Virus record (IMG/VR): IMGVR_UViG_3300031566_000041
Coordinates: 1-55,442 of that record
Length of the DNA stretch: 55,442 nt
Source: a virus
Direction: 5' to 3' (one strand)
Positions 3,219 through 17,808 of this stretch are shown here, one piece after another. The translations under genes and the position numbers were made by a program. The notes beneath the pieces are model-generated. The model ran no database searches. It was not told the origin of the DNA and worked only from the letters and a program-made list of their open reading frames with translations. Numbering within the stretch: the first letter of the stretch is position 1; each line of letters begins with the position of its first letter.

Positions 3219-4004
3219 ATGGGACACATCAGGCTAGGGAACCTTCCTCGCACTCGGAAATGGCAACAGGTCGTTGCCCTTATAGAGGGCGGAGCGGGAA
3301 CAACCCAGATTGCTAACGCAACCATTACGGCAGCGGAGCAAGGGTTGAACTTAGCGGCCGAAGACAAGGGCCTGGTCGAAACCATCTGGCTTCTTACGCA
3401 ATTGCCCTTGGCCGCAAAGAGCAACAACTTTGCCGATGCTCTTCGAAATGCAGGTCTAGATGTTTCCGATTCTCCAACCCTGCTGGAGGTAGTCGGCGCG
3501 TTCTCTGATGCAGTCGACCACCGGCTGGCCAACAATGGCGGACGGACGGATCTGGGTGAGATGGCCCAGATGGCTGCGTCCGAAACGATGACGCAGTTGA
3601 TCGGGAGCCGGACACAGAATCTTTTCGGCACAACCCCAGACGACGTCAAGAGCGCCTTCTCCACCCTTGCCACAAACAAGCAGTTCAGCATCTTTGCCAG
3701 GGATTTTTTCGCCCGCCTGACAGACAAGTGTCTTGATTATTTTGTCAGCAGAGCCGTTGCTCACAATGTGGGGGAGGGCCGACGTTTTCGGACACTGGCC
3801 CAGCAGGGTGAATTCACCAAGGCTCTCGGGACCCATAGTTATGAGGCCTCGAGAATCGTCGAGGAGTTTTCCGGGGGCTGGTTCTCAAAGACCAACTGGG
3901 AGAATAAAGGCATATCGAGAAAGGATGCCGCCGGTTTCGCGCACGTTGCCATGAAGAAGATCGTGGCGGAACTCAAGGAAGGAGCGCAAACCGATGACAA
4001 ATGA
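3219..4004 (+). CDS. Uncharacterised partner protein (Met-Gly N-terminus) of the QueC-like enzyme
   Basis: This 261-residue, largely helical protein begins MGHIRLGNLPRTRKW. I recognise no enzyme motif or membrane segment. Its 3' end overlaps the next gene by 11 bp, so the two form a tight operon. Known QueC-like defence enzymes (for example QatC with QatB in the Qat system) act with a small partner protein encoded next to them. As I recall it, those enzymes modify the exposed N-terminal glycine of the partner after Met removal. The second residue here is Gly, consistent with such a role, but the sequence does not visibly match QatB. The ribosome-binding site is weak. Base composition is clearly AT-richer than the surrounding phage genes. 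Confidence 0.6.
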   Translation: MGHIRLGNLPRTRKWQQVVALIEGGAGTTQIANATITAAEQGLNLAAEDKGLVETIWLLTQLPLAAKSNNFADALRNAGLDVSDSPTLLEVVGAFSDAVDHRLANNGGRTDLGEMAQMAASETMTQLIGSRTQNLFGTTPDDVKSAFSTLATNKQFSIFARDFFARLTDKCLDYFVSRAVAHNVGEGRRFRTLAQQGEFTKALGTHSYEASRIVEEFSGGWFSKTNWENKGISRKDAAGFAHVAMKKIVAELKEGAQTDDK

Positions 4005-6084
4005 GCGCTCCATCCTCTGCGGTGATGTCACAACCGACTCATTACCATTTGACCGAAAGAAGCCGCTACGTCTACACCTGTGGGAACCCCACGAGAATAT
4101 ATCTCTGTGCATCAATGATATCCACAGCCAGCTTCTCAAGGACATCCCCTCCCAGTTCCACGATCTGGTCGAGATTGCGACATATGTTTATTGCGCAGAC
4201 CAAGCCATCACGAGAGGGGGCGATGGCGTGGATAACTTCGGTGAGAACTGGAGGCGTAGGTTATTTTTCAGAATACCAGTTCGAAATCCGGATTTATGGA
4301 ACTCCTCGCCGCTTAAGGATCAACTGATAGAGACTCTTAGCTTTCTGTCCGAGGATGAATACCATTTCGATTTTATGAAGCTCACGAAGCAACCCCCTAC
4401 TCAGAAACATCTCGAATTAGACGCTGCTCCGCCGGAAGAGGTTGTGTTGTTTTCTGGCGGACTGGATTCTTTAGGCGGAGCTATACAGGAAGCTGTCGTG
4501 AATCAACGTAAGATCGCGTTGGTCACCCACAAGTCGACACAAAAGCTGGCCAAGCGGCATCGAGTGCTGAAGGAACTCCTTGCGAAAAGCGCGTCACATG
4601 CCCCGTTCCATGTCGCGGTCATTATTAACAAGGACAAGTCTTTGGGGCAGGAATATACCCAGCGGAGTCGGTCGTTCCTGTATGCCGCACTTGGATCGAC
4701 GGTAGCCCAAATGTTCGGGCTTTCTCGAATCCGGTTCTACGAGAACGGTGTCGTCAGTTTCAACCTGCCTGTATCAGCGCAGGTCGTAGGCGCAAGAGCT
4801 ACGCGGACTACACATCCCCAGGTCATCAATGGTTTTGCCAAAATCATCTCGACTGTGGCCAGCAAGCCATTCACGATTGAGAACCCATTCCTCTGGAAGA
4901 CCAAGACAGAAGTCGTGAAGGGGATCGTCGATGCTGGTTGCGGGGAGACCATCAAATTCGCCACAAGTTGTACGCACACCTGGGAGATTACCAGACTCCA
5001 CACTCACTGTGGAACCTGCTCCCAGTGCATCGACCGCCGCTTTGCGGTATTGGCCGCCGGCGCTCAGGACCATGATCCGGCGGAAGCCTATGGCGTTGAT
5101 CTCCTGGTTGGCGAAAGGGCCGAGGGCGAATCGAAAACAATGCTGGCAGCCTACGTGGAAACGGCAAACGAGGTTGCGGACATGGCCCCCCTCAAATTCT
5201 TTGGACGGTATGGCGAAGCCGCACGAGTATTGAAACACCTCAATGGTTCAGCGGATTCAACCGCTCTTCAGCTTTTTGAAATGCACCAGCGCCATGCTAA
5301 ATATGTTACGAAGGTCGTTGAGGATGCGATTGCACAAAACAGCGCTGCGATTCGGAAGCGGGAACTGCCTGATAGTTGCCTCCTTCGGTTAGTGTGTGAC
5401 TCTAGTGGAATTGTCGCCGGGCAACCAGCCCCACCTTCATCAGCAATGGTCCCCTCGCCAAGTAATTACATCTGCCGAAAACAGCAATGCTGGGCAATCA
5501 GGTTTGGAGGAAATGAAGAAAAAATATATACACCAGAAATCGGCTTCTATCACTTGCAAATACTTCTTGAGAACCCAGGCACGTCATTTTCTGCATCGGA
5601 ACTCGATGTTGCAGTAAGACGGATGACAAAGAACGAACCTGTCGCCTCGGTATCCGCCACTGAAGATCAACCTGAAGATGGCTTCACGATTTTGGGACAG
5701 TCTGATTCCGGAGCAGTGCTCGATGACAAAGCCATCCAATCATATCGCACAAGGCTGGAAGAACTCGAGGGTGAGCTTAACGAGGCTCGATCCAACAATG
5801 ACCTCTCGAAGATTGAGTCGTTGGAAAACGACAAGGAATGGATCATTTCTGAACTCGGCAAAGCTCATGGGCTCGGAGGAAAGGTTCGGAAACTCGCGGA
5901 TGAACGGGACAAGGTTCGGAAACGTGTAAGCAATGCAATTACTCGTGCCCTAAAGAAAATAGATCAGTATGATAAGCCGCTCTCAGAACACCTAAAAGAA
6001 CCCGTCATAAACTTAGGCCATTCAATAAGTTATGTTCCTCGTGATGGTCTGACCTGGTCAACAACACCTACCTCAAATAACTGA
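3994..6084 (+). CDS. QueC-like PP-loop enzyme with C-terminal sensor/coiled-coil extension (defence candidate)
   Basis: The 696-residue protein has three parts. Residues 1-145 form an N-terminal domain with a conserved YCADQ and WRRRLFF segment. The QueC-like domain follows: its ATP-pyrophosphatase loop SGGLDS is at 154-159, and its zinc site is Cys326, Cys339, Cys342 and Cys345 (C-x12-C-x2-C-x2-C). Residues from about 488 carry a W-x-I-x-F ... IGFYHLQILLENPG module, then a coiled coil (about 575-640) and a terminal VRKRVSNAITRALKKI domain. QueC makes 7-cyano-7-deazaguanine and is about 230 residues. The extra domains and partner gene point instead to a QatC-like defence or protein-modifying enzyme. 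None of the Qat ATPase or TatD nuclease partners is present. The gene is AT-richer than its neighbours. Confidence 0.8.
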   Translation: MTNERSILCGDVTTDSLPFDRKKPLRLHLWEPHENISLCINDIHSQLLKDIPSQFHDLVEIATYVYCADQAITRGGDGVDNFGENWRRRLFFRIPVRNPDLWNSSPLKDQLIETLSFLSEDEYHFDFMKLTKQPPTQKHLELDAAPPEEVVLFSGGLDSLGGAIQEAVVNQRKIALVTHKSTQKLAKRHRVLKELLAKSASHAPFHVAVIINKDKSLGQEYTQRSRSFLYAALGSTVAQMFGLSRIRFYENGVVSFNLPVSAQVVGARATRTTHPQVINGFAKIISTVASKPFTIENPFLWKTKTEVVKGIVDAGCGETIKFATSCTHTWEITRLHTHCGTCSQCIDRRFAVLAAGAQDHDPAEAYGVDLLVGERAEGESKTMLAAYVETANEVADMAPLKFFGRYGEAARVLKHLNGSADSTALQLFEMHQRHAKYVTKVVEDAIAQNSAAIRKRELPDSCLLRLVCDSSGIVAGQPAPPSSAMVPSPSNYICRKQQCWAIRFGGNEEKIYTPEIGFYHLQILLENPGTSFSASELDVAVRRMTKNEPVASVSATEDQPEDGFTILGQSDSGAVLDDKAIQSYRTRLEELEGELNEARSNNDLSKIESLENDKEWIISELGKAHGLGGKVRKLADERDKVRKRVSNAITRALKKIDQYDKPLSEHLKEPVINLGHSISYVPRDGLTWSTTPTSNN

Positions 6085-10663: not shown

Positions 10664-12824
10664 AAAGGTCTTCTTTGCCGGGGGAAAGTTCTCGGCGGGG
10701 AGGCTCAAGACAGACGCGGGCGAGGACATCCAGTTCGCGGGCAACCTGTTCGCGCAGGAAAACGATTCGGTCGTGCTCAATGGCCGCTGGATCATGCACC
10801 CCAAGTACGGCAGGCAGTTCGAAGTCCAGAGCATGGAATACAACCTTGACCTTGACGCTACGGGCCTGGCCAACTACCTCGCCAACAACCCGCACGTCAA
10901 GGGCATCGGGCCGGCCAAGGCGAAGCTCATCGTCGAGCGGTTCGGTAATGACTTCGACCGCGCCCTCGCCGAGGATGCAGAAGCAATCGCCAAGACCGCC
11001 AAGGTCTCGGTGGACAAGATTGTTCAACTGCGGGACGAGTGGGACCGGACCCGCCTAGTCAACAAGGCGCTCACCTGGCTCGCGAGCTTTGATCTCACTC
11101 ACCACCAGGTGACGACCCTGGTCGAGAAGTTCGGCAACAACGTCCTGGGCGTGCTCAAGGCTGATCCCTACCTGATCATCCGCGAGGTCTCCGGCTTCGG
11201 CTTCAAGAAAGTGGACAAGGTCGCCCGCAAGATGGGCACGCCCAAGGACCACTGCCCCCGCATTCGGGCCGGGATCATTCATTGCCTTGACGAGGCCTTG
11301 GACCAGGGCGATTGCTGGGTCGAGTATGAGGACCTCCTGGACCGCGCCAACCTGCTCCTGGTGATGGACACCCTCGACAGCCGCGAGCGGATCGAGACGG
11401 AGTTGGACGCGCTGATCGATTCCAAGCAGCTGTCATGCTCATCGCATGGAGGCCGGTTCATTGTGGCCCGGCCCGATATCCTGGCGATGGAGACGGACCT
11501 GGCGGAATTCCTGCGCCGGGGCGACTTGGCCAACCCGAATTTCGATAAGCGAGATGATGTCTCCGAACTCGTGGACCGCGCGGCCCCCAGCCTCAATGAT
11601 GGACAGCGAGGAGCGGTGACCTTGGCCCTGTCTCACTCGATCACTCTCATCTCCGGCGGCGCGGGCAGCGGCAAGACCTACACGGTCTCCGCGATCACCA
11701 GCATCTATGAGGAGCAGGGTTTGAGTGTCATCCTGGCCGCGCCCACCGGCAAGGCCGCCAAGAGGCTCGAACAGGTGGTAGGGCATGCGGCGAGCACCAT
11801 CCATCGTCTGCTCGGATTCAACGGCAAGACCTATGCTCGCGGTCCGGACGATCCCCTTGACGCCGATGTGATCATCATTGATGAGGTCTCGATGGTGGAC
11901 GTCCCCCTGGCCTGGCGCTTGTTCCGAACGATTGACTTGAGCCGGACCGCCGTGGTGTTGGTGGGAGACCATAACCAACTGCCGCCGGTTGGCCCGGGCA
12001 ACATGCTGCGCGACCTGATCCAGACCCGGGCCGTGCCTTCCGTGGTGCTCGATAAGGTCGTCCGCCAGGCGGGGGTGCTGAAGGAGAACTGCATCGCGAT
12101 CTTGAACGGGGAAGTTCGCAAGACCGCCGAGGAGAAAAAGGTCAAGCGGCAGGGATGGTATCTCCTTGATCAGTTCACGGACCAGCACGAAGCGCAACAA
12201 GCCCTCCTGGAGATGTTCAAGCACAGGATCGAAGATGGCCTGGGCTTCAATCTCATGAGCGACGTCCAGGTCTTGACGCCCACGCACAAGGGCCCGCTCG
12301 GCACGGTCGAGTTGAACATCAAGCTCCAGAAGCTCCTCCAGCGCAAGCTTTGGGGAGTCCACGTGCCGGATACGCCCTCTGGCCGTCGGCCCAAGTTTCA
12401 CCCATTCGACAAGGTGATCCAGACCCGCAATAACTACGACCTGGGCGTCATGAACGGCGCGGTGGGCATGGTGATTGATGTGGACCGCAAGGGATCGCTC
12501 AACATTGACTTCGACGGCATGCCGGTAACGGTCGAGGCCTCCAACCTGCAGGACGTGCAGCTGGCCTATGCGCTCACCATCCACAAGACCCAGGGATCGG
12601 AGTTCCCCTGCGCCATTGTCATTGTCCACAAGTCCCACGCCTTCATGCACCACCGCAATCTCTTTTACACCGGCGTCACCCGGGCCAGGGAAACCGCCAT
12701 CATCATCGGGGACCATTGGGGGATCAAGAACTGCGTCAAGAAGCGCCACCTGGACGAGCGCAAGACCTTCTTGTCCATTCATCTGGCCGAGCCGGTTTCG
12801 CAAAGCAATGAAGCTCGACCGTAA
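10614..12824 (+). CDS. recD2: RecD2-like superfamily 1B DNA helicase
   Basis: The product of about 736 residues begins MTDKKSPAPATLRG. An N-terminal OB-like region is followed by a helix-hairpin-helix (HVKGIGPAKAKLIVERFG), Walker A GGAGSGKT at 348-355, Walker B with Asp423-Glu424 (IIIDEVSMVD), and the C-terminal motif YALTIHKTQGSEF. This is the domain order and length of RecD2 helicases, 5'-3' translocases in replication and repair. In a phage it probably unwinds DNA for the recombination module or as replicative helicase. A longer open frame back to 10404 overlaps the ERCC4 gene and lacks family similarity, so the ATG at 10614 is preferred. Confidence 0.9.
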   Translation: MTDKKSPAPATLRGTIEKVFFAGGKFSAGRLKTDAGEDIQFAGNLFAQENDSVVLNGRWIMHPKYGRQFEVQSMEYNLDLDATGLANYLANNPHVKGIGPAKAKLIVERFGNDFDRALAEDAEAIAKTAKVSVDKIVQLRDEWDRTRLVNKALTWLASFDLTHHQVTTLVEKFGNNVLGVLKADPYLIIREVSGFGFKKVDKVARKMGTPKDHCPRIRAGIIHCLDEALDQGDCWVEYEDLLDRANLLLVMDTLDSRERIETELDALIDSKQLSCSSHGGRFIVARPDILAMETDLAEFLRRGDLANPNFDKRDDVSELVDRAAPSLNDGQRGAVTLALSHSITLISGGAGSGKTYTVSAITSIYEEQGLSVILAAPTGKAAKRLEQVVGHAASTIHRLLGFNGKTYARGPDDPLDADVIIIDEVSMVDVPLAWRLFRTIDLSRTAVVLVGDHNQLPPVGPGNMLRDLIQTRAVPSVVLDKVVRQAGVLKENCIAILNGEVRKTAEEKKVKRQGWYLLDQFTDQHEAQQALLEMFKHRIEDGLGFNLMSDVQVLTPTHKGPLGTVELNIKLQKLLQRKLWGVHVPDTPSGRRPKFHPFDKVIQTRNNYDLGVMNGAVGMVIDVDRKGSLNIDFDGMPVTVEASNLQDVQLAYALTIHKTQGSEFPCAIVIVHKSHAFMHHRNLFYTGVTRARETAIIIGDHWGIKNCVKKRHLDERKTFLSIHLAEPVSQSNEARP

Positions 12825-12835
12825 ACGGGAGCTAT

Positions 12836-15800
12836 ATGGCGGCCTCGCTCGCAAACGTCAGGGAGTATTACCGGCTCATCACCGAGATTGACATCGGCCA
12901 GGCAGCCCGCGACCTCCTTGCCGGCCGCATCACCCAGGAGTCCGGGCATCTGCTCCAATGCGACTGCCCCAACCATAAAAGCCAGTCACACCGCTCGCTT
13001 CACATCATGCTTGATAAGCAGGGCTGGTACTGCTTCGGGTGCGGCGCGGGCGGGGATGTGCTCCAGCTGGTCGAGTTCGTTCAAGCCGGGAAGGTGACCG
13101 CCGGACAATCCGGAACCATGCCGGACAGTCACCGAAACGCCCGGGACTACCTCGCTGAAAAAGCCGGACTGCCGCCATTGTCCGAATACGGCCTCTCCCC
13201 CGAACACCTGAAGGAAACCGAGGCCGCGCGCCTGCTGGAAGTCCGGGTGCAGGAAGCCTTGACCGCGCTCGCGGGGTTCTATCACGAACGCCTCAAGGAC
13301 TCTCCCAAGGTCCTGGAGTGGTTCCACGCGCATTATGGGATTTCCGATGAGACCATCGATAAGCTGCTGATCGGCTATGCCTCGAACTCCCCGAGCAAGA
13401 GTCCGAGCGGAGAAGAGCGTCCGGGCCTGCTCAAAGCCCTGACCAGCCCTCCCCATAATTTCAGCCTCCGGGAACTGGCCGCGAGCGGGGCCTTCCGACC
13501 GACCAGCCAGGACGGTCTGCTTCCATTCTTCGAAGCCAGGATCGTGTTCCCCTACTGGAGCCGGGGCCGTGTGGTCTTCATGATCGGCCGCAAGACCCCG
13601 TGGACCCCGGACAAGCCCTGGGAGCAGGGCAAGTACAAGAAGCTCCCGGTTAACAACGAAGGCTCCAACAAGCACATCGCGGCCTGCGTCAACAACAGCT
13701 TCCTGTTCAACGAGGACTGCCTGCTGGCCCGGCCTGACCGGGTGATCATCACGGAAGGAGTGACCGACTGCATCTCGCTGATGGAGCAGGGCTTCCCGGC
13801 GGTCTCGCCGGTCACGGTGAGAATCCGCCAGGCGGACTGGGACCGGCTCATCCCCAAGTTGCGCGGGGTAAAGACCATCTATATCTGCCAGGATAACGAG
13901 GTCTCGCAGGCGGGCTTGCACGGGGCCATGAAGACCGCAAGCATCCTGGCCGAACACAATATCGAGACCAGACTCGTGGTCCTGCCCCTCACCGAAAAGC
14001 AGGAACAGGCCCGTGGCCAACTCCAGCAAGTTTTCAACGTCACCGCGAACGTCGGCCCGGGCGAACTGAAAAAGCTCCTGGCCGGGCGGTCGGACGAGGA
14101 GATCAAGCAGGCCGAGCAGTTGCTCGCGCAGGCCAAAATTGATGTCAACGACTATTTCGTCTCCGGCCATACGGGGGCGGACTTCGAGGTTCTCCTGGGC
14201 CAGGCCCAGACGCCCCTGGAGTTTGGGATCGCCAATCTGCCAACCGATCTCCCCGAGCAGGAGCGCAACCGGCTCCTCGAACCGATTCTCCTTGAGGTTG
14301 CCCATCTGGTCCCGCTCGAACAAAATCGCCACTTGAAAATTCTCCAGGAGAAGTTCGGCAAGGAGAACCTGTCTCTCACCACTCTACGTGATCAGGTCAA
14401 AGCCGCGCAAAAGGAAAGCGCGGCCCGGTCTCGCGGGAGAAGGCGGTCGGAAAAATACACGTCCAACGCCCCGCCCGGATCGTGCCGCGCCCGGATCGAG
14501 CAGGCCATGATCGAGGCCGACGAGGCCTCGGGCGGGCCGGACTACGCCAAAATCGCCGAGGCTTCCTTCGAGTGGTTCTCTGCCAACGGCGCTCGGTTTT
14601 TCTACACGCCCCGGGGCGAGCCGTTCATGTTCTTCGAGGACCGGCTCCTGTGGATGGACAGCTTCGACCGGGGCCGCAAGCGCAGTTACTATTCGACCAT
14701 GTACAAGCACACTGGGGTCGTCCAGACCACCAATGGCGGCCGCACCTTCTACGAGGTCCTGTCCAACCTGGCGATGGACCGGGGCGAAATGCGGGAGGAC
14801 TTCATGTGGCTGCACACCGACGTGGGCCGCTATACCCTTTACTTCAACCTCAACAACTCCGATCACGAGATCGCCAAGATCACGCCCGACGGCATCGAGA
14901 TCATGAAGAACGGCGGCAACGCGGACAAAATCATCCTCCAACCCTCCAACAAGATGAGGCCCCTCAAATTCCAGCCGGGCGCGGACATCGAAGAGGCCGA
15001 CCGCCTGCTCCTGGACCTCATCGTCTCCAACCTGCCCTGCGCCCAGGGCGACCGCTTCCTCATCCTCTTGTGGCTCTCGTGCTTCCTGCTCATCGACTTC
15101 GTGGGGACCCGGCCCATGACCCGCTTCGAGGGCAGTTCGCAGTCCGGCAAGACCACGGCCAGCAAGCTCATCTCCGCCCTGCTCTATGGCGAGACCGAAC
15201 AGAAGACCAGCACCATCGCCGCCAACTACACCGACGGCTCGCGGAACCCCTGCATCTTCCTGGACAACATCGAGGTCGCCCAACTGACCGATGAACTCAC
15301 CACCTTCCTGCTCACCAGCATCACCGGGATCGCCAAGGAAAAACGCCGGGGCGGGACCGACACCGAGACGGTCATCGAGCGGACCAAGTGCCTGCTCAAC
15401 ACCACCGGCATTGAGCCGCTGGGCGGAGAGTTGGCCGAAATCCTCTCCCGCACCTTCATCATCCGCTTCGACATCAATGAGCAAGCCAGCGACTGCTTCC
15501 TCGAGGCCAAGGTCCTGGACGCCATCAAGCAGCGCCGGGATTTCATCCTCTCCGCGCTCATGAAACGCACCAGCCACGTCCTGGCCCTGCTCCGGGACGG
15601 CGCGCAGGAGAAGGTCATGCGGCTGTTGCACCAGACCCTGGGGCACCACAACAAGCGCCGCTGCAACGACTACCTGAGCCTCATGTACCTCATGATGATC
15701 GTGGGCGAGTCCCCGGAGGAAATCACCACGGCCCTGGAGACCCTGAACCCGCAGTTCGTCGAGCGCATCGCCTCCATCAACAGTGTGAGCCTGGAGACGG

Positions 15801-16171
15801 CCCGCGAGTCCAATCCCATCGCCACGGCCCTGGCAACCTTGTTCAAGGCCTATCGCCACGCCCTCGAGGCCGACCAGGAGAGCACGGCTACTAACGTGGT
15901 CAAGTCCAACAAGGCCGCCTTCATGGAACGCTACCAGTTGGATTTTCAGGACGAGGATACCATCAAGGGTGCTCTGGCCCGCGATATCTTCATCGCCCTC
16001 CGCAGGCTCGCCAAGGACTTCAGCCTCTCCTTTAATATGAAGTCCGTACAGCAGTTCGCCCAGCGCTTCTCGAACGACCTGGCGGTCATCAAGCAGGCTG
16101 GCTTCGACATCAATCTGAACCAAGGCCACGCTCGAACCACCACCTACAACATCACCTGTCTTCCCCGGTAA
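12836..16171 (+). CDS. Primase-ATPase fusion (DnaG-like zinc finger and Toprim with C-terminal P-loop domain)
   Basis: This 1111-residue protein has a CHC2 zinc finger at the N-terminus (Cys42 and/or Cys44, His47, Cys66-x2-Cys69) and a long middle part with a Toprim-like core (Glu307 in ITEGVTD). A C-terminal ATPase carries a P-loop, GSSQSGKTT, at 766-774, followed by a Walker B-like FLDNIE. It would make primers and may load or act as a helicase or origin ATPase. The iteron-rich candidate origin begins 30 bp after its stop, as expected for a replication initiator locus. The ATPase half looks closer to phage and plasmid D5/DnaB-like ATPases than to RecA-type DnaB, but I cannot decide between them. 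Confidence 0.83.
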   Translation: MAASLANVREYYRLITEIDIGQAARDLLAGRITQESGHLLQCDCPNHKSQSHRSLHIMLDKQGWYCFGCGAGGDVLQLVEFVQAGKVTAGQSGTMPDSHRNARDYLAEKAGLPPLSEYGLSPEHLKETEAARLLEVRVQEALTALAGFYHERLKDSPKVLEWFHAHYGISDETIDKLLIGYASNSPSKSPSGEERPGLLKALTSPPHNFSLRELAASGAFRPTSQDGLLPFFEARIVFPYWSRGRVVFMIGRKTPWTPDKPWEQGKYKKLPVNNEGSNKHIAACVNNSFLFNEDCLLARPDRVIITEGVTDCISLMEQGFPAVSPVTVRIRQADWDRLIPKLRGVKTIYICQDNEVSQAGLHGAMKTASILAEHNIETRLVVLPLTEKQEQARGQLQQVFNVTANVGPGELKKLLAGRSDEEIKQAEQLLAQAKIDVNDYFVSGHTGADFEVLLGQAQTPLEFGIANLPTDLPEQERNRLLEPILLEVAHLVPLEQNRHLKILQEKFGKENLSLTTLRDQVKAAQKESAARSRGRRRSEKYTSNAPPGSCRARIEQAMIEADEASGGPDYAKIAEASFEWFSANGARFFYTPRGEPFMFFEDRLLWMDSFDRGRKRSYYSTMYKHTGVVQTTNGGRTFYEVLSNLAMDRGEMREDFMWLHTDVGRYTLYFNLNNSDHEIAKITPDGIEIMKNGGNADKIILQPSNKMRPLKFQPGADIEEADRLLLDLIVSNLPCAQGDRFLILLWLSCFLLIDFVGTRPMTRFEGSSQSGKTTASKLISALLYGETEQKTSTIAANYTDGSRNPCIFLDNIEVAQLTDELTTFLLTSITGIAKEKRRGGTDTETVIERTKCLLNTTGIEPLGGELAEILSRTFIIRFDINEQASDCFLEAKVLDAIKQRRDFILSALMKRTSHVLALLRDGAQEKVMRLLHQTLGHHNKRRCNDYLSLMYLMMIVGESPEEITTALETLNPQFVERIASINSVSLETARESNPIATALATLFKAYRHALEADQESTATNVVKSNKAAFMERYQLDFQDEDTIKGALARDIFIALRRLAKDFSLSFNMKSVQQFAQRFSNDLAVIKQAGFDINLNQGHARTTTYNITCLPR

Positions 16172-16201
16172 CCGGCTTCTTTTTTTCCATTCAGCCCATT
16201 G

Positions 16202-16519
16202 GGTGAAAGGGTACCCTTTCACCACGGCGAACCTTTCACCATGAAAATAGTTTGATAATCCATATAGTTATCCTGCGTGGTGAAAGGGTGAAAGGTTCCC
16301 AGAGGTCTCTCTCTATATTTGAAGAAAAAAATAAGGGTGGGGGTCCTCGTCAAGGGGATGGTAGCCTTTATTTTTTGCTCATTAATAGACATATCCTTCC
16401 CTACCTTTCACCCTTTCACCATATTTTATTAATTATTTATTGAAATTGAATGGTTATGTATGGTGAAAGGTCCTGGTGAAAGGTTGTTTTGCCCCTTCCG
16501 AACCTTTCACCCTTTCACC
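16202..16519. repeat. Iteron array GGTGAAAGG, eleven copies, candidate phage replication origin
   Basis: The motif GGTGAAAGG occurs eleven times in 318 bp. There is a perfect 22-bp palindrome at 16202-16223 and a minus copy at 16231-16240. Tandem pairs follow at 16279-16296 (plus), 16403-16420 (minus), 16462-16484 (plus, 3-bp wider spacing) and 16502-16519 (minus). The three tight pairs are the same 18-mer. Strand order is + - - ++ -- ++ --. Iteron clusters next to a primase gene typically bind an initiator. An operator array is the alternative. Confidence 0.75.
16421..16461. other. AT-rich segment inside the iteron array (possible DNA-unwinding element)
   Basis: About 40 bp of almost pure A and T (ATATTTTATTAATTATTTAT and onward) lies between two iteron pairs, in a GC-rich genome. 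Origins usually place the melting site beside iterons. The 16172-16615 interval holds no gene. It contains only the iterons, this segment, and promoter copy C. Confidence 0.55.
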
Positions 16520-16539
16520 ACTTCCCAACTTTTTTTAGA

Positions 16540-16582
16540 AAATTTCCGACACTTTCGCCTCTCCGCCGGTATGTAATCCGGG
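16540..16582 (+). promoter_or_regulatory. Conserved phage promoter element, copy C (post-origin operon)
   Basis: CCGACA (16546-16551), an 18-bp spacer ending in CGCCGG, then TATGTAAT (16570-16577). The -10 block differs from TATATAT in copies A, B, E and F but equals copy D. It lies 40 bp before the next gene and directly after the iterons, so initiator binding could influence it. Confidence 0.75.
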
Positions 16583-16615
16583 TAAACCGAGATTTCATTC
16601 CGGGAGCGAGAAGCA

Positions 16616-17434
16616 ATGAGCCTCTTAAAAATCATGCAGGAACATGCAGACGGGGAAACCGCCGTCAAGGAACCTGCGGGCAAAATCAAGGACGCGAACC
16701 ACGAGGGGTCCGGCCAGGCAAACCCGCCGATCCAGCAACCCGCCCTTTACGTTTCCCCTACGCTCAAGACCTGGGAGACCGACAAGCCGCAACTCTACGC
16801 CCGCGACGTCACCTACGATGACCTCTGCTACCGCCGCCTCGATCCCGAATACTATGCCTGGCTCCGCTCCAAGATCATGCTGGCCAAAAGAGCATGCGAG
16901 TCCGGGCGACTTGCCAAGGCCGCCTATGACGAACTGCGCGGCAAGTTCATGCCCATTCACGAGTGGGCGATGAAAAATTTCGGCGACGGCCAGGTACAAG
17001 AGGCCATCAACCAACTGGATGCCCAGGCCTACGCCCCGCCAATCCCCTGGAAGGCCGGAGACCTGGACAGGCATGCAGCAACAGCGGACAAGGTCGTACC
17101 GAAACCCGAACACCTCTTTCCTCCCAACGGAGAATTCAGATTCGTCCATCCCGTCTCCCCCGAGTCTGTGGCCAAGGTCGATGCCATCAAGGACCAAGCT
17201 CTATCCCTCGACTGGACCGAGACCTCCCTCTACCAGAACCGCGGGCAATTCAAATTCCCCTGCGGCGAGGACTATGGCCTGGTTTGCTTCCTGGAAGGCG
17301 ACAGGCTCATCGGCGAGGTCACCCGCCAGTCCATCGAGATCATCCATCCAGGTCCCCGCGAGAGCCGACTGCGCTTCTATAACTCGCACGTTGACCAGCC
17401 CTGGATCAAGCGGTCGGGAAAGGAGGCCCCATGA
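16616..17434 (+). CDS. Phage protein of unknown function after the origin
   Basis: This 272-residue protein starts at the ATG of MSLLKIMQEHADGE with CGGGAG upstream. No known domain is evident. A Pro-rich linker (about 30-50) is followed by a helical part with YDDLCYRRLDPEYYAWLRSK and a C-terminal beta-rich half containing EDYGLVCFLEGDRLIGEV. It overlaps the next gene by 4 bp in an ATGA-type junction, so both are co-expressed from promoter copy C. The context (between origin and terminase) fits a replication or regulatory accessory protein, but nothing in the sequence proves this. Confidence 0.55.
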   Translation: MSLLKIMQEHADGETAVKEPAGKIKDANHEGSGQANPPIQQPALYVSPTLKTWETDKPQLYARDVTYDDLCYRRLDPEYYAWLRSKIMLAKRACESGRLAKAAYDELRGKFMPIHEWAMKNFGDGQVQEAINQLDAQAYAPPIPWKAGDLDRHAATADKVVPKPEHLFPPNGEFRFVHPVSPESVAKVDAIKDQALSLDWTETSLYQNRGQFKFPCGEDYGLVCFLEGDRLIGEVTRQSIEIIHPGPRESRLRFYNSHVDQPWIKRSGKEAP

Positions 17435-17808
17435 AAAAACGCTATGCCTGCGCCCACGCCGTGCTGCCGGCCGACCTGGTCGAGGCGGTGCAAGCCCACT
17501 TCACCGGGCTGCTCTGGGTGCCGAGCAGCAAGCTGTTCTATGACGAGCGCAAGAAGCTCGTGCTGGCGCTCAAGGAGGAAGGCGTGCCCATCAAGGAGAT
17601 TGCGCGGCTGGCCGGAATCTCACCCCGCCGGGTCCACCAGATCATAAAAAATGAGCGGCCTGACAAAATAATTTCCGGCACTTTTGACGATTCGCCGGTA
17701 TGTAATCAGGTGGAAGGCGTCTCCGACAAGGGGAGTGAAATCCAGCTTAATTTGCTTCCCGCGCCGGAGTCGGATGCATCGGTGCAGAATTCACACGACG
17801 ATGACTGA
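17431..17808 (+). CDS. Helix-turn-helix regulator (Mor or sigma-region-4-like) with internal promoter
   Basis: This 125-residue protein has a helix-turn-helix at about 50-75 (GVPIKEIARLAGISPRRVHQ), preceded by a GLLWVPSS segment and an acidic C-terminus. The arrangement resembles small phage activators of the Mor/C type, but I am not certain of the family. Its 3' third carries a copy of the conserved phage promoter element (17669-17711) embedded in codons after the helix-turn-helix, and it overlaps the next gene by 8 bp. The regulator could therefore control, or be controlled through, its own downstream region. Confidence 0.6.
   Translation: MKKRYACAHAVLPADLVEAVQAHFTGLLWVPSSKLFYDERKKLVLALKEEGVPIKEIARLAGISPRRVHQIIKNERPDKIISGTFDDSPVCNQVEGVSDKGSEIQLNLLPAPESDASVQNSHDDD
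17669..17711 (+). promoter_or_regulatory. Conserved phage promoter element, copy D (inside a coding sequence)
   Basis: CCGGCA (17675-17680, one change from the consensus), an 18-bp spacer ending in CGCCGG, then TATGTAAT (17699-17706). It lies within the helix-turn-helix gene and about 95 bp before the small-terminase candidate. The weak match in the -35 block and its intragenic position suggest a minor or tuned promoter. Confidence 0.65.

Follow-up and report, generated by a model that had tools for sequence, protein, structure and literature searches.

The alpha protein of phage P4 unites primase, ATPase and winged-helix domains in one protein and binds iterons (ori1/crr) that are GGTGAAC-like, and the iterons of the phage lambda origin lie inside the O gene. 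The Rep initiators of SaPIs are described as having a C-terminal domain whose target repeats immediately follow the gene for the protein (PMC7581432, citing Ubeda et al. 2007), and helicase domains of the DUF927 or D5/Primase_Cterm families (PMC7581432). ORF904 of pRN1 is reported to combine primase, helicase and winged-helix domains, and an essential origin follows closely behind its gene (PMC4234260). In the Vibrio cholerae PLE, the origin and the initiator DNA-binding domain are reported to have been repeatedly swapped together (PMC7145576, PMC8263062), for which an origin-directed nuclease (Odn) may select (PMC8263062).

The locus described here lies in a 55,442-base virus contig, IMGVR_UViG_3300031566_000041 (the window, i.e. 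the whole stretch of DNA that was analysed), and consists of a primase-ATPase gene followed by an array of the unit GGTGAAAGG. Like P4 alpha, its protein appears to combine primase, ATPase and winged-helix parts, and the P4 iterons are close to GGTGAAAGG; in contrast, the fold match to P4 is weak and the P4 origin layout is unlike that of the window. Compared with SaPI Rep/ori, it likewise pairs a putative initiator helicase with a cluster of short repeats that follows the gene directly, whereas the presumed initiator carries a fused DnaG-like (Toprim) primase and ~11 sites occur in a largely fixed two-strand order, with many interchangeable units in one family. As in pRN1, the candidate origin diverges in sequence while its form is kept, although pRN1 is reported to have a stem-loop origin, an archaeo-eukaryotic primase and no iterons. 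The PLE RepA_N system resembles the present one in the joint swapping of origin and DNA-binding domain, and differs in its unrelated initiator family, N-terminal binding domain and three semi-palindromic ~30 bp repeats. No description of such arrays for PHROG 47 or VapE-type primases appeared among the openly accessible papers listed by a literature search.

The iteron array of the window and the adjacent primase-ATPase

Eleven exact copies of GGTGAAAGG were identified within 318 bp (16202..16519), with zero further copies in the 55,442 bases; 100 dinucleotide shuffles yielded a mean of 0.54 copies and at most 4. The copies start at 16202, 16215, 16232, 16279, 16287, 16404, 16412, 16462, 16475, 16503 and 16511, in the strand order > < < > > < < > > < <. 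Sites 1-2 form a perfect 22-bp palindrome (16202..16223), followed by a single copy on the minus strand (site 3, 16232..16240), a plus-strand tandem in which one G is common to both units (sites 4-5, 16279..16295), a minus-strand tandem (sites 6-7, 16404..16420), a plus-strand pair with 13 bp spacing (sites 8-9, 16462..16483) and a further minus-strand tandem (sites 10-11, 16503..16519). The 17-bp tandem, composed of two 9-mers with one G in common, thus occurs three times, and identity among the three extends over 19 bp (16278-16296 on the plus strand, 16403-16421 and 16502-16520 on the minus strand). The AT-richest 40 bp of the array (88%; 16422..16461) represent a candidate unwinding element. 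These results bear out the first-pass annotation, which had described an eleven-copy array behind a primase-ATPase gene, with alternating strands around an AT-rich segment, a 22-bp palindrome, a spaced pair and a single copy; its three identical 18-mers of overlapping units slightly understated the extent of identity.

The array is housed in a 444-bp gap between the primase stop at 16171 and the next ATG at 16616, starting 30 bp past the stop and ending 96 bp short of a 272-aa gene (16616..17434, plus strand) that has no family match and whose counterparts follow the array in relatives. A small helix-turn-helix (HTH) protein is encoded nearby (17431-17808), and a large terminase gene is located ~4 kb downstream. 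Elsewhere in the window, a 696-aa protein (3994-6084) shows a partial QueC-like match over residues 276-351. The 444-nt gap folds far better than shuffles (z -7.3), which follows from the inverted unit copies and so does not separate a pRN1-like stem-loop origin from the iteron reading; the stem-loop reading was set aside. The cumulative GC skew of the window reaches its minimum at 17505, 1 kb to the right of the array, a depth equalled in 13 of 2000 block-shuffled sequences. Of 28 relatives, only 15 show a rise in skew over the array; skew therefore fits an origin in the window only and was dropped as family-wide support.

The upstream gene (12836..16171, plus strand) encodes a 1111-aa primase-ATPase matched full-length by the PHROG 47 family model (residues 14-1104, E 2.6e-185), with DnaG Zn-ribbon, DNAG_N and Toprim domains in its N-terminal, DnaG-like half and a Walker-A-like GSSQSGKT at residue 766; a Pfam search of its C-terminal half with an E-value limit of 1 gave no ATPase family. 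An earlier model of residues 401-1111 was poor (mean pLDDT 64.3) and served only to place the tail. AlphaFold2 predicts the last 122 residues (990-1111) as a winged helix (mean pLDDT 90.4, 25 sequences), of which residues 1025-1108 (15908..16159, plus strand) are the proposed iteron-binding domain. This comprises a predicted recognition helix (residues 1071-1080; 16046..16075, plus strand) and a wing hairpin (residues 1090-1108; 16103..16159, plus strand) with strands at residues 1090-1096 and 1102-1108. Weak structural neighbours of the tail include the P4 origin-binding domain, RepE and Orc1/Cdc6; with a best Foldseek E of 0.22 and VIA-align Z of at most 4.6, these matches to the predicted model say only 'winged helix'. 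The match to the P4 origin-binding domain (1KA8) is itself weak (Foldseek E 0.98, VIA-align Z 3.8, 78 residues, 12% identity), too weak for the primase to be assigned to P4 by fold, and that assignment was dropped.

Arrays of other units beside related primases

Relatives confirmed by tblastn comprised 46 and 29 loci in viral contigs, the two sets being largely the same contigs, and 76 loci in bacterial or archaeal genomes, many of them Desulfobacterota-like or from Acidobacteria, going by record names; carriers include Desulfosarcina alkanivorans, Desulfofustis glycolicus and Desulfobulbus rhabdoformis. After 15 incomplete or short matches had been skipped, 97 relative primases were complete and distinct over their last 300 residues. 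The DnaG-like half is common to all, the C-terminal halves differ, and the proteins were grouped into class A (the window type; 48), class B (21), class C (3) and class D (13), with 12 unplaced; the class B ATPase is VapE-like PF05272, a family shown for L029 and L036. A tblastn comparison of the window primase with named phages gave 40 records, all restricted to the primase half and none covering 80%, so that these offer no isolated phage with a studied origin for comparison.

An array, scored wherever a single 7-mer recurs to give five or more copies within 450 bp near the gene end, with the region upstream of the same genes as control, accompanies the primase at 45 of 48 class A loci (upstream 0/42), 21 of 21 in class B (3/15), three of three in class C (0/1) and 13 of 13 in class D (0/9). 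The array may follow the gene at once, lie beyond an inserted gene or fall within the 3' end of the gene itself. Among the unclassed loci, which include archaeal relatives 30-34% identical, at least five copies followed the gene in 4/12 and preceded it in 4/11; nothing is claimed for these loci, as the control is equally frequent. Three class A loci have no array near the primase: L082, discussed below; L058, with a broken reading frame on a contig that ends about 2.9 kb on; and L159, a distant member (42% identical over the C-terminal half) beside whose primase no array could be recognised. The same contig carries six AGGTTGGT-like words some 12 kb beyond this primase, near position 11790 (L168).

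The motif search in related phages suggested by the first-pass annotation showed that GGTGAAAGG itself is missing from most relatives, which instead carry a similar array of another unit. Absence of the array from close relatives, which had been named as refuting evidence, would misfire if judged by this motif, because the arrays of relatives use other units. In class A, these are TGCGAAGG, TGAGAAGG, TGCGGAGG, GTAGAAAGG, GCCGAAAGG, ACCGAAAGG, TGCGGTGG and GGCGGGTG, the class A patterns being xxxGAAAGG, TGxGAAGG, TGCGGAGG, TGCGGTGG and GGCGGGTG; class B uses ACTGGAAC, ACTGGGAC, CGTGGACC or CGTGCACC, and class C TGGGGATCT. A literal search of viral contigs for GGTGAAAGGGTGAAAGG returned six stretches. 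One (L053) is on the same contig as L023, and two (L051 and L055) are arrays of this kind preceding a gene like that at 16616, in records in which the class A primase half was not found. In the 67-kb record of L051, the array, which contains GGTGAAAGG, and the usual downstream gene are flanked on the other side by host-like genes on the opposite strand; this is perhaps an orphan array. L050 was rejected as another array type, rich in GGTGAAAC, and L052 and L054 as apparent chance occurrences.

The strand order and spacing of the sites are largely kept with the eight other class A units. When 27 class A loci were laid out, allowing up to one mismatch per site, the full order was present in the window, L062 and L107, and the others had a few sites missing or added, apart from L082, with no array within reach. 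The site offsets of the window (0, 13, 30, 77, 85, 202, 210, 260, 273, 301, 309) closely resemble those of L059 with TGCGAAGG (0, 12, 32, 78, 86, 209, -, 269, 281, 308, 316) and L062 with GTAGAAAGG (0, 9, 40, 88, 97, 202, 211, 262, 275, 302, 311). One pair is missing in L069, L153 and L078, and the last inverted pair in L116 and L142; arrays of TGCGGTGG and GGCGGGTG have a somewhat different order, common to both.

Class D arrays contain 9-14 copies of, for example, GGGGAAC or TGGGGAC, and in 12 of 13 loci they lie, translated, inside the last ~450 bases of the primase gene (L084, L087, L089, L092, L095, L096, L098, L099, L105, L109, L114 and L119); in L106 the array follows the gene. The overprinted tails are rich in NVP/KVP and GTF-like words and have a recurring DLA-LP motif near the end. 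The class A locus L116 is intermediate between arrays after and inside the gene, as its primase frame, over the last ~90 bases of the gene, continues past the usual end into the array. The iterons of class D, a class known from sequence, resemble those of lambda O in lying inside the gene of the presumed initiator, although lambda O is not of the protein family of the class D primases.

Inserted DNA, often a gene, separates primase stop and array in L006, L007, L009, L011, L013, L019, L021, L026, L056, L070 and L082; by eye, the inserted genes include an ATP-binding protein opening with MIVSFSLENWMSFR and Fic-like and PLD-like proteins, and the position has the appearance of a hotspot at which accessory genes, perhaps for defence, are gained. 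One 83-kb contig (IMGVR_UViG_3300028837_004134) holds two primase-array cassettes, L045 and L046, both with TGCGAAGG.

Covariation of the unit with the winged helix

The relationship between unit and primase tail was assessed for 43 of the 48 class A loci, or 30 after dereplication at 97%. L058, L082 and L159 were left out beforehand (no array had then been seen), as were L108 (other tail and unit) and L116 (frame running into the array). Units were assigned by hand, and 8-mers were aligned to 9-mers with one hand-placed gap, both of which may introduce bias. Across the 30 loci, unit distance correlated with distance in the wing (0.74) and recognition helix (0.70), and less with that in the ATPase (0.39) or primase half (0.18). 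With these two and the downstream gene partialled out, the HTH plus wing retained a partial r of 0.71 with the unit (p 0.0005, where permutation p-values floor at 1/2001 and permutations ignore the tree). Among loci below 90% ATPase identity, the nearest neighbour by HTH plus wing predicted the unit in 19 of 22 cases, compared with 16 for the primase half (a small margin), 14 for the ATPase and 10 for the downstream gene. Unit identity tracks the winged helix rather than the ATPase, the primase half or the next gene.

Within the winged helix, variation in the predicted recognition helix goes with that in the last six unit bases (0.71 given the wing) and variation in the wing with that in the first three (0.61 given the helix), with cross terms of -0.39 and -0.11 across the 30 class A loci; this is a statistical match uncorrected for kinship, and the helix/wing borders, set after the alignment and first model had been viewed, may carry some bias.

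These comparisons bear on the possibility that the array is an operator through which the primase winged helix or the HTH protein (17431-17808) controls the gene at 16616. The array directly precedes that gene, which recurs there in relatives, and the HTH protein is encoded close by, but the downstream gene is a poor guide to the unit, and nothing of its correlation remains given the winged helix (partial r -0.22). Moreover, eleven sites are many for an operator, the array of 12 class D loci falls within the primase coding sequence, at its 3' end, and 16100-16700 holds one promoter-like site (1.0 in shuffles) and no terminator-like site (1.1 in shuffles), which together make such control very unlikely. 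A partition or packaging site placed beside the primase by chance would accord with the large terminase gene downstream and with the fact that iteron arrays also act as centromeres. The unit, however, follows the primase tail once the ATPase, the primase half and the downstream gene have been allowed for, and residues of that tail would be of no concern to a partition or packaging protein; we regard this explanation as highly improbable.

Shared ancestry of a linked block, with another linked protein as the true binder, could also produce a correlation between tail and unit, given that the tail adjoins the array, that one recombination event moves both and that the permutations take no account of phylogeny. 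Against this stand the persistence of the partial correlation, the division between helix and wing, which linkage would not predict, and arrays that still match when 1.3-6 kb from the gene. Units also switch on a near-constant backbone, the nine unit types needing nine changes on the tree of primase half and ATPase, where eight is the minimum. Linkage alone is consequently considered a very unlikely source of the correlation.

Several such exchanges were identified between closely related loci. L070 (GTAGAAAGG) and L069 (GCCGAAAGG) are 99% identical in the ATPase and 98% in the primase half, and the visible winged-helix differences are KRY versus NHR in the wing, together with residues that follow the wing. 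L057 (GGTGAAAGG) and L056 (TGAGAAGG), with 99% and 97%, respectively, have identical recognition helices and different wings. L140 (GCC) and L142 (ACC) share 99% of the ATPase, 98% of the primase half and 49% of the HTH plus wing; the corresponding values for L070 and L061 (TGCGGTGG) are 94%, 98% and 34%. The array of L138 (GTA) has spacers 73-74% identical to those of L069 or L076 (GCC), and the units differ. Stray copies remain in these switched arrays, one GTAGAAAG each in L069 and L076 and one GCCGAAAG in L138; GCAGAAAG is present in the arrays of L153 and L107.

For L082, GGTGAAAGG was named in advance as the unit because its tail resembles that of L081; this was an informal inference on a single case. 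No GGTGAAAGG was found within 5 kb of the primase gene. A search of the genome for the tandem 17-mer and its inverted partner located the sites on a 136,303-bp contig, the primase's own by overlap, at 5.9-6.2 kb past the primase stop. Their order is as expected, and the gene after them resembles the one that normally follows an array; three sites are exact and four have one mismatch.

Proposed origin function and its meaning

We interpret the array as the origin of replication of the phage, recognised by the C-terminal winged-helix domain of the adjacent primase-ATPase, and assign this reading a probability of roughly 0.85 on comparative sequence grounds. It draws on the likeness to the SaPI Rep repeats and the downstream region of pRN1, and the window combines features by which iteron origins are recognised, namely clustered near-identical short repeats, an AT-rich stretch (88% over 40 bp near 16422) and an adjacent gene for a probable cognate initiator that covaries with the repeats. 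As for SaPI Rep, the array is downstream of the gene, and covariation of tail and unit in the compared sequences is strong. The first-pass annotation had favoured an origin whose initiator recognises GGTGAAAGG, with the primase-ATPase or the HTH protein as possible binder; the comparative evidence supports an origin as the best reading and points to the primase-ATPase, via its winged helix, as the likely binder.

The mechanism that we propose starts from what was observed: the array with its layout and position, the linked primase gene, and the statistical correspondence of helix and wing with the parts of the unit. In this mechanism, the winged helix would bind each GGTGAAAGG, the recognition helix reading the GAAAGG half and the β-hairpin wing the first three bases. 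With sites on either strand around the AT-rich stretch, oligomers facing in opposite directions would have their ATPase domains loaded there, and these would melt and unwind the AT-rich DNA. The fused DnaG-like half would then prime new strands, and replication would start at the array.

Two cassettes with different units occur in single genomes, namely in the one chromosome of Desulfosarcina alkanivorans (L059 with TGCGAAGG and L100 with TGCGGTGG) and in Desulfobulbus rhabdoformis (L065 and L069), which would suit the avoidance of cross-firing. We tentatively suggest, at a little under even odds, a recodable lock and key. The winged helix would have a separable two-part code, its recognition helix for the six-base half and its wing for the first three bases, and a change of wing would be accompanied by concerted rewriting of the ~11 two-strand sites, whose arrangement stays almost the same. 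Such switching would enable related prophages that share a cell to fire independently of each other, or would let them evade a nuclease directed at the origin.

The type of mechanism is already known from SaPI Rep and P4 alpha; the new detail lies in an array that switches its unit while conserving its layout, and in the split between helix and wing. Set against SaPI Rep, pRN1 and PLE, the present family is distinguished by its fusion to a DnaG-type primase, its conserved multi-site layout and that same split. An old question about iteron replicons is how an initiator and its dispersed sites change specificity together without a lethal intermediate. Near-isogenic pairs (KRY versus NHR in the wing, GTA versus GCC in the array) and stray copies of other units within arrays make this question testable with short proteins and oligonucleotides. 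The link between tail and unit also offers a route to origins in uncultured phages, in which the primase tail gives a predicted unit and the unit guides the search for the array.
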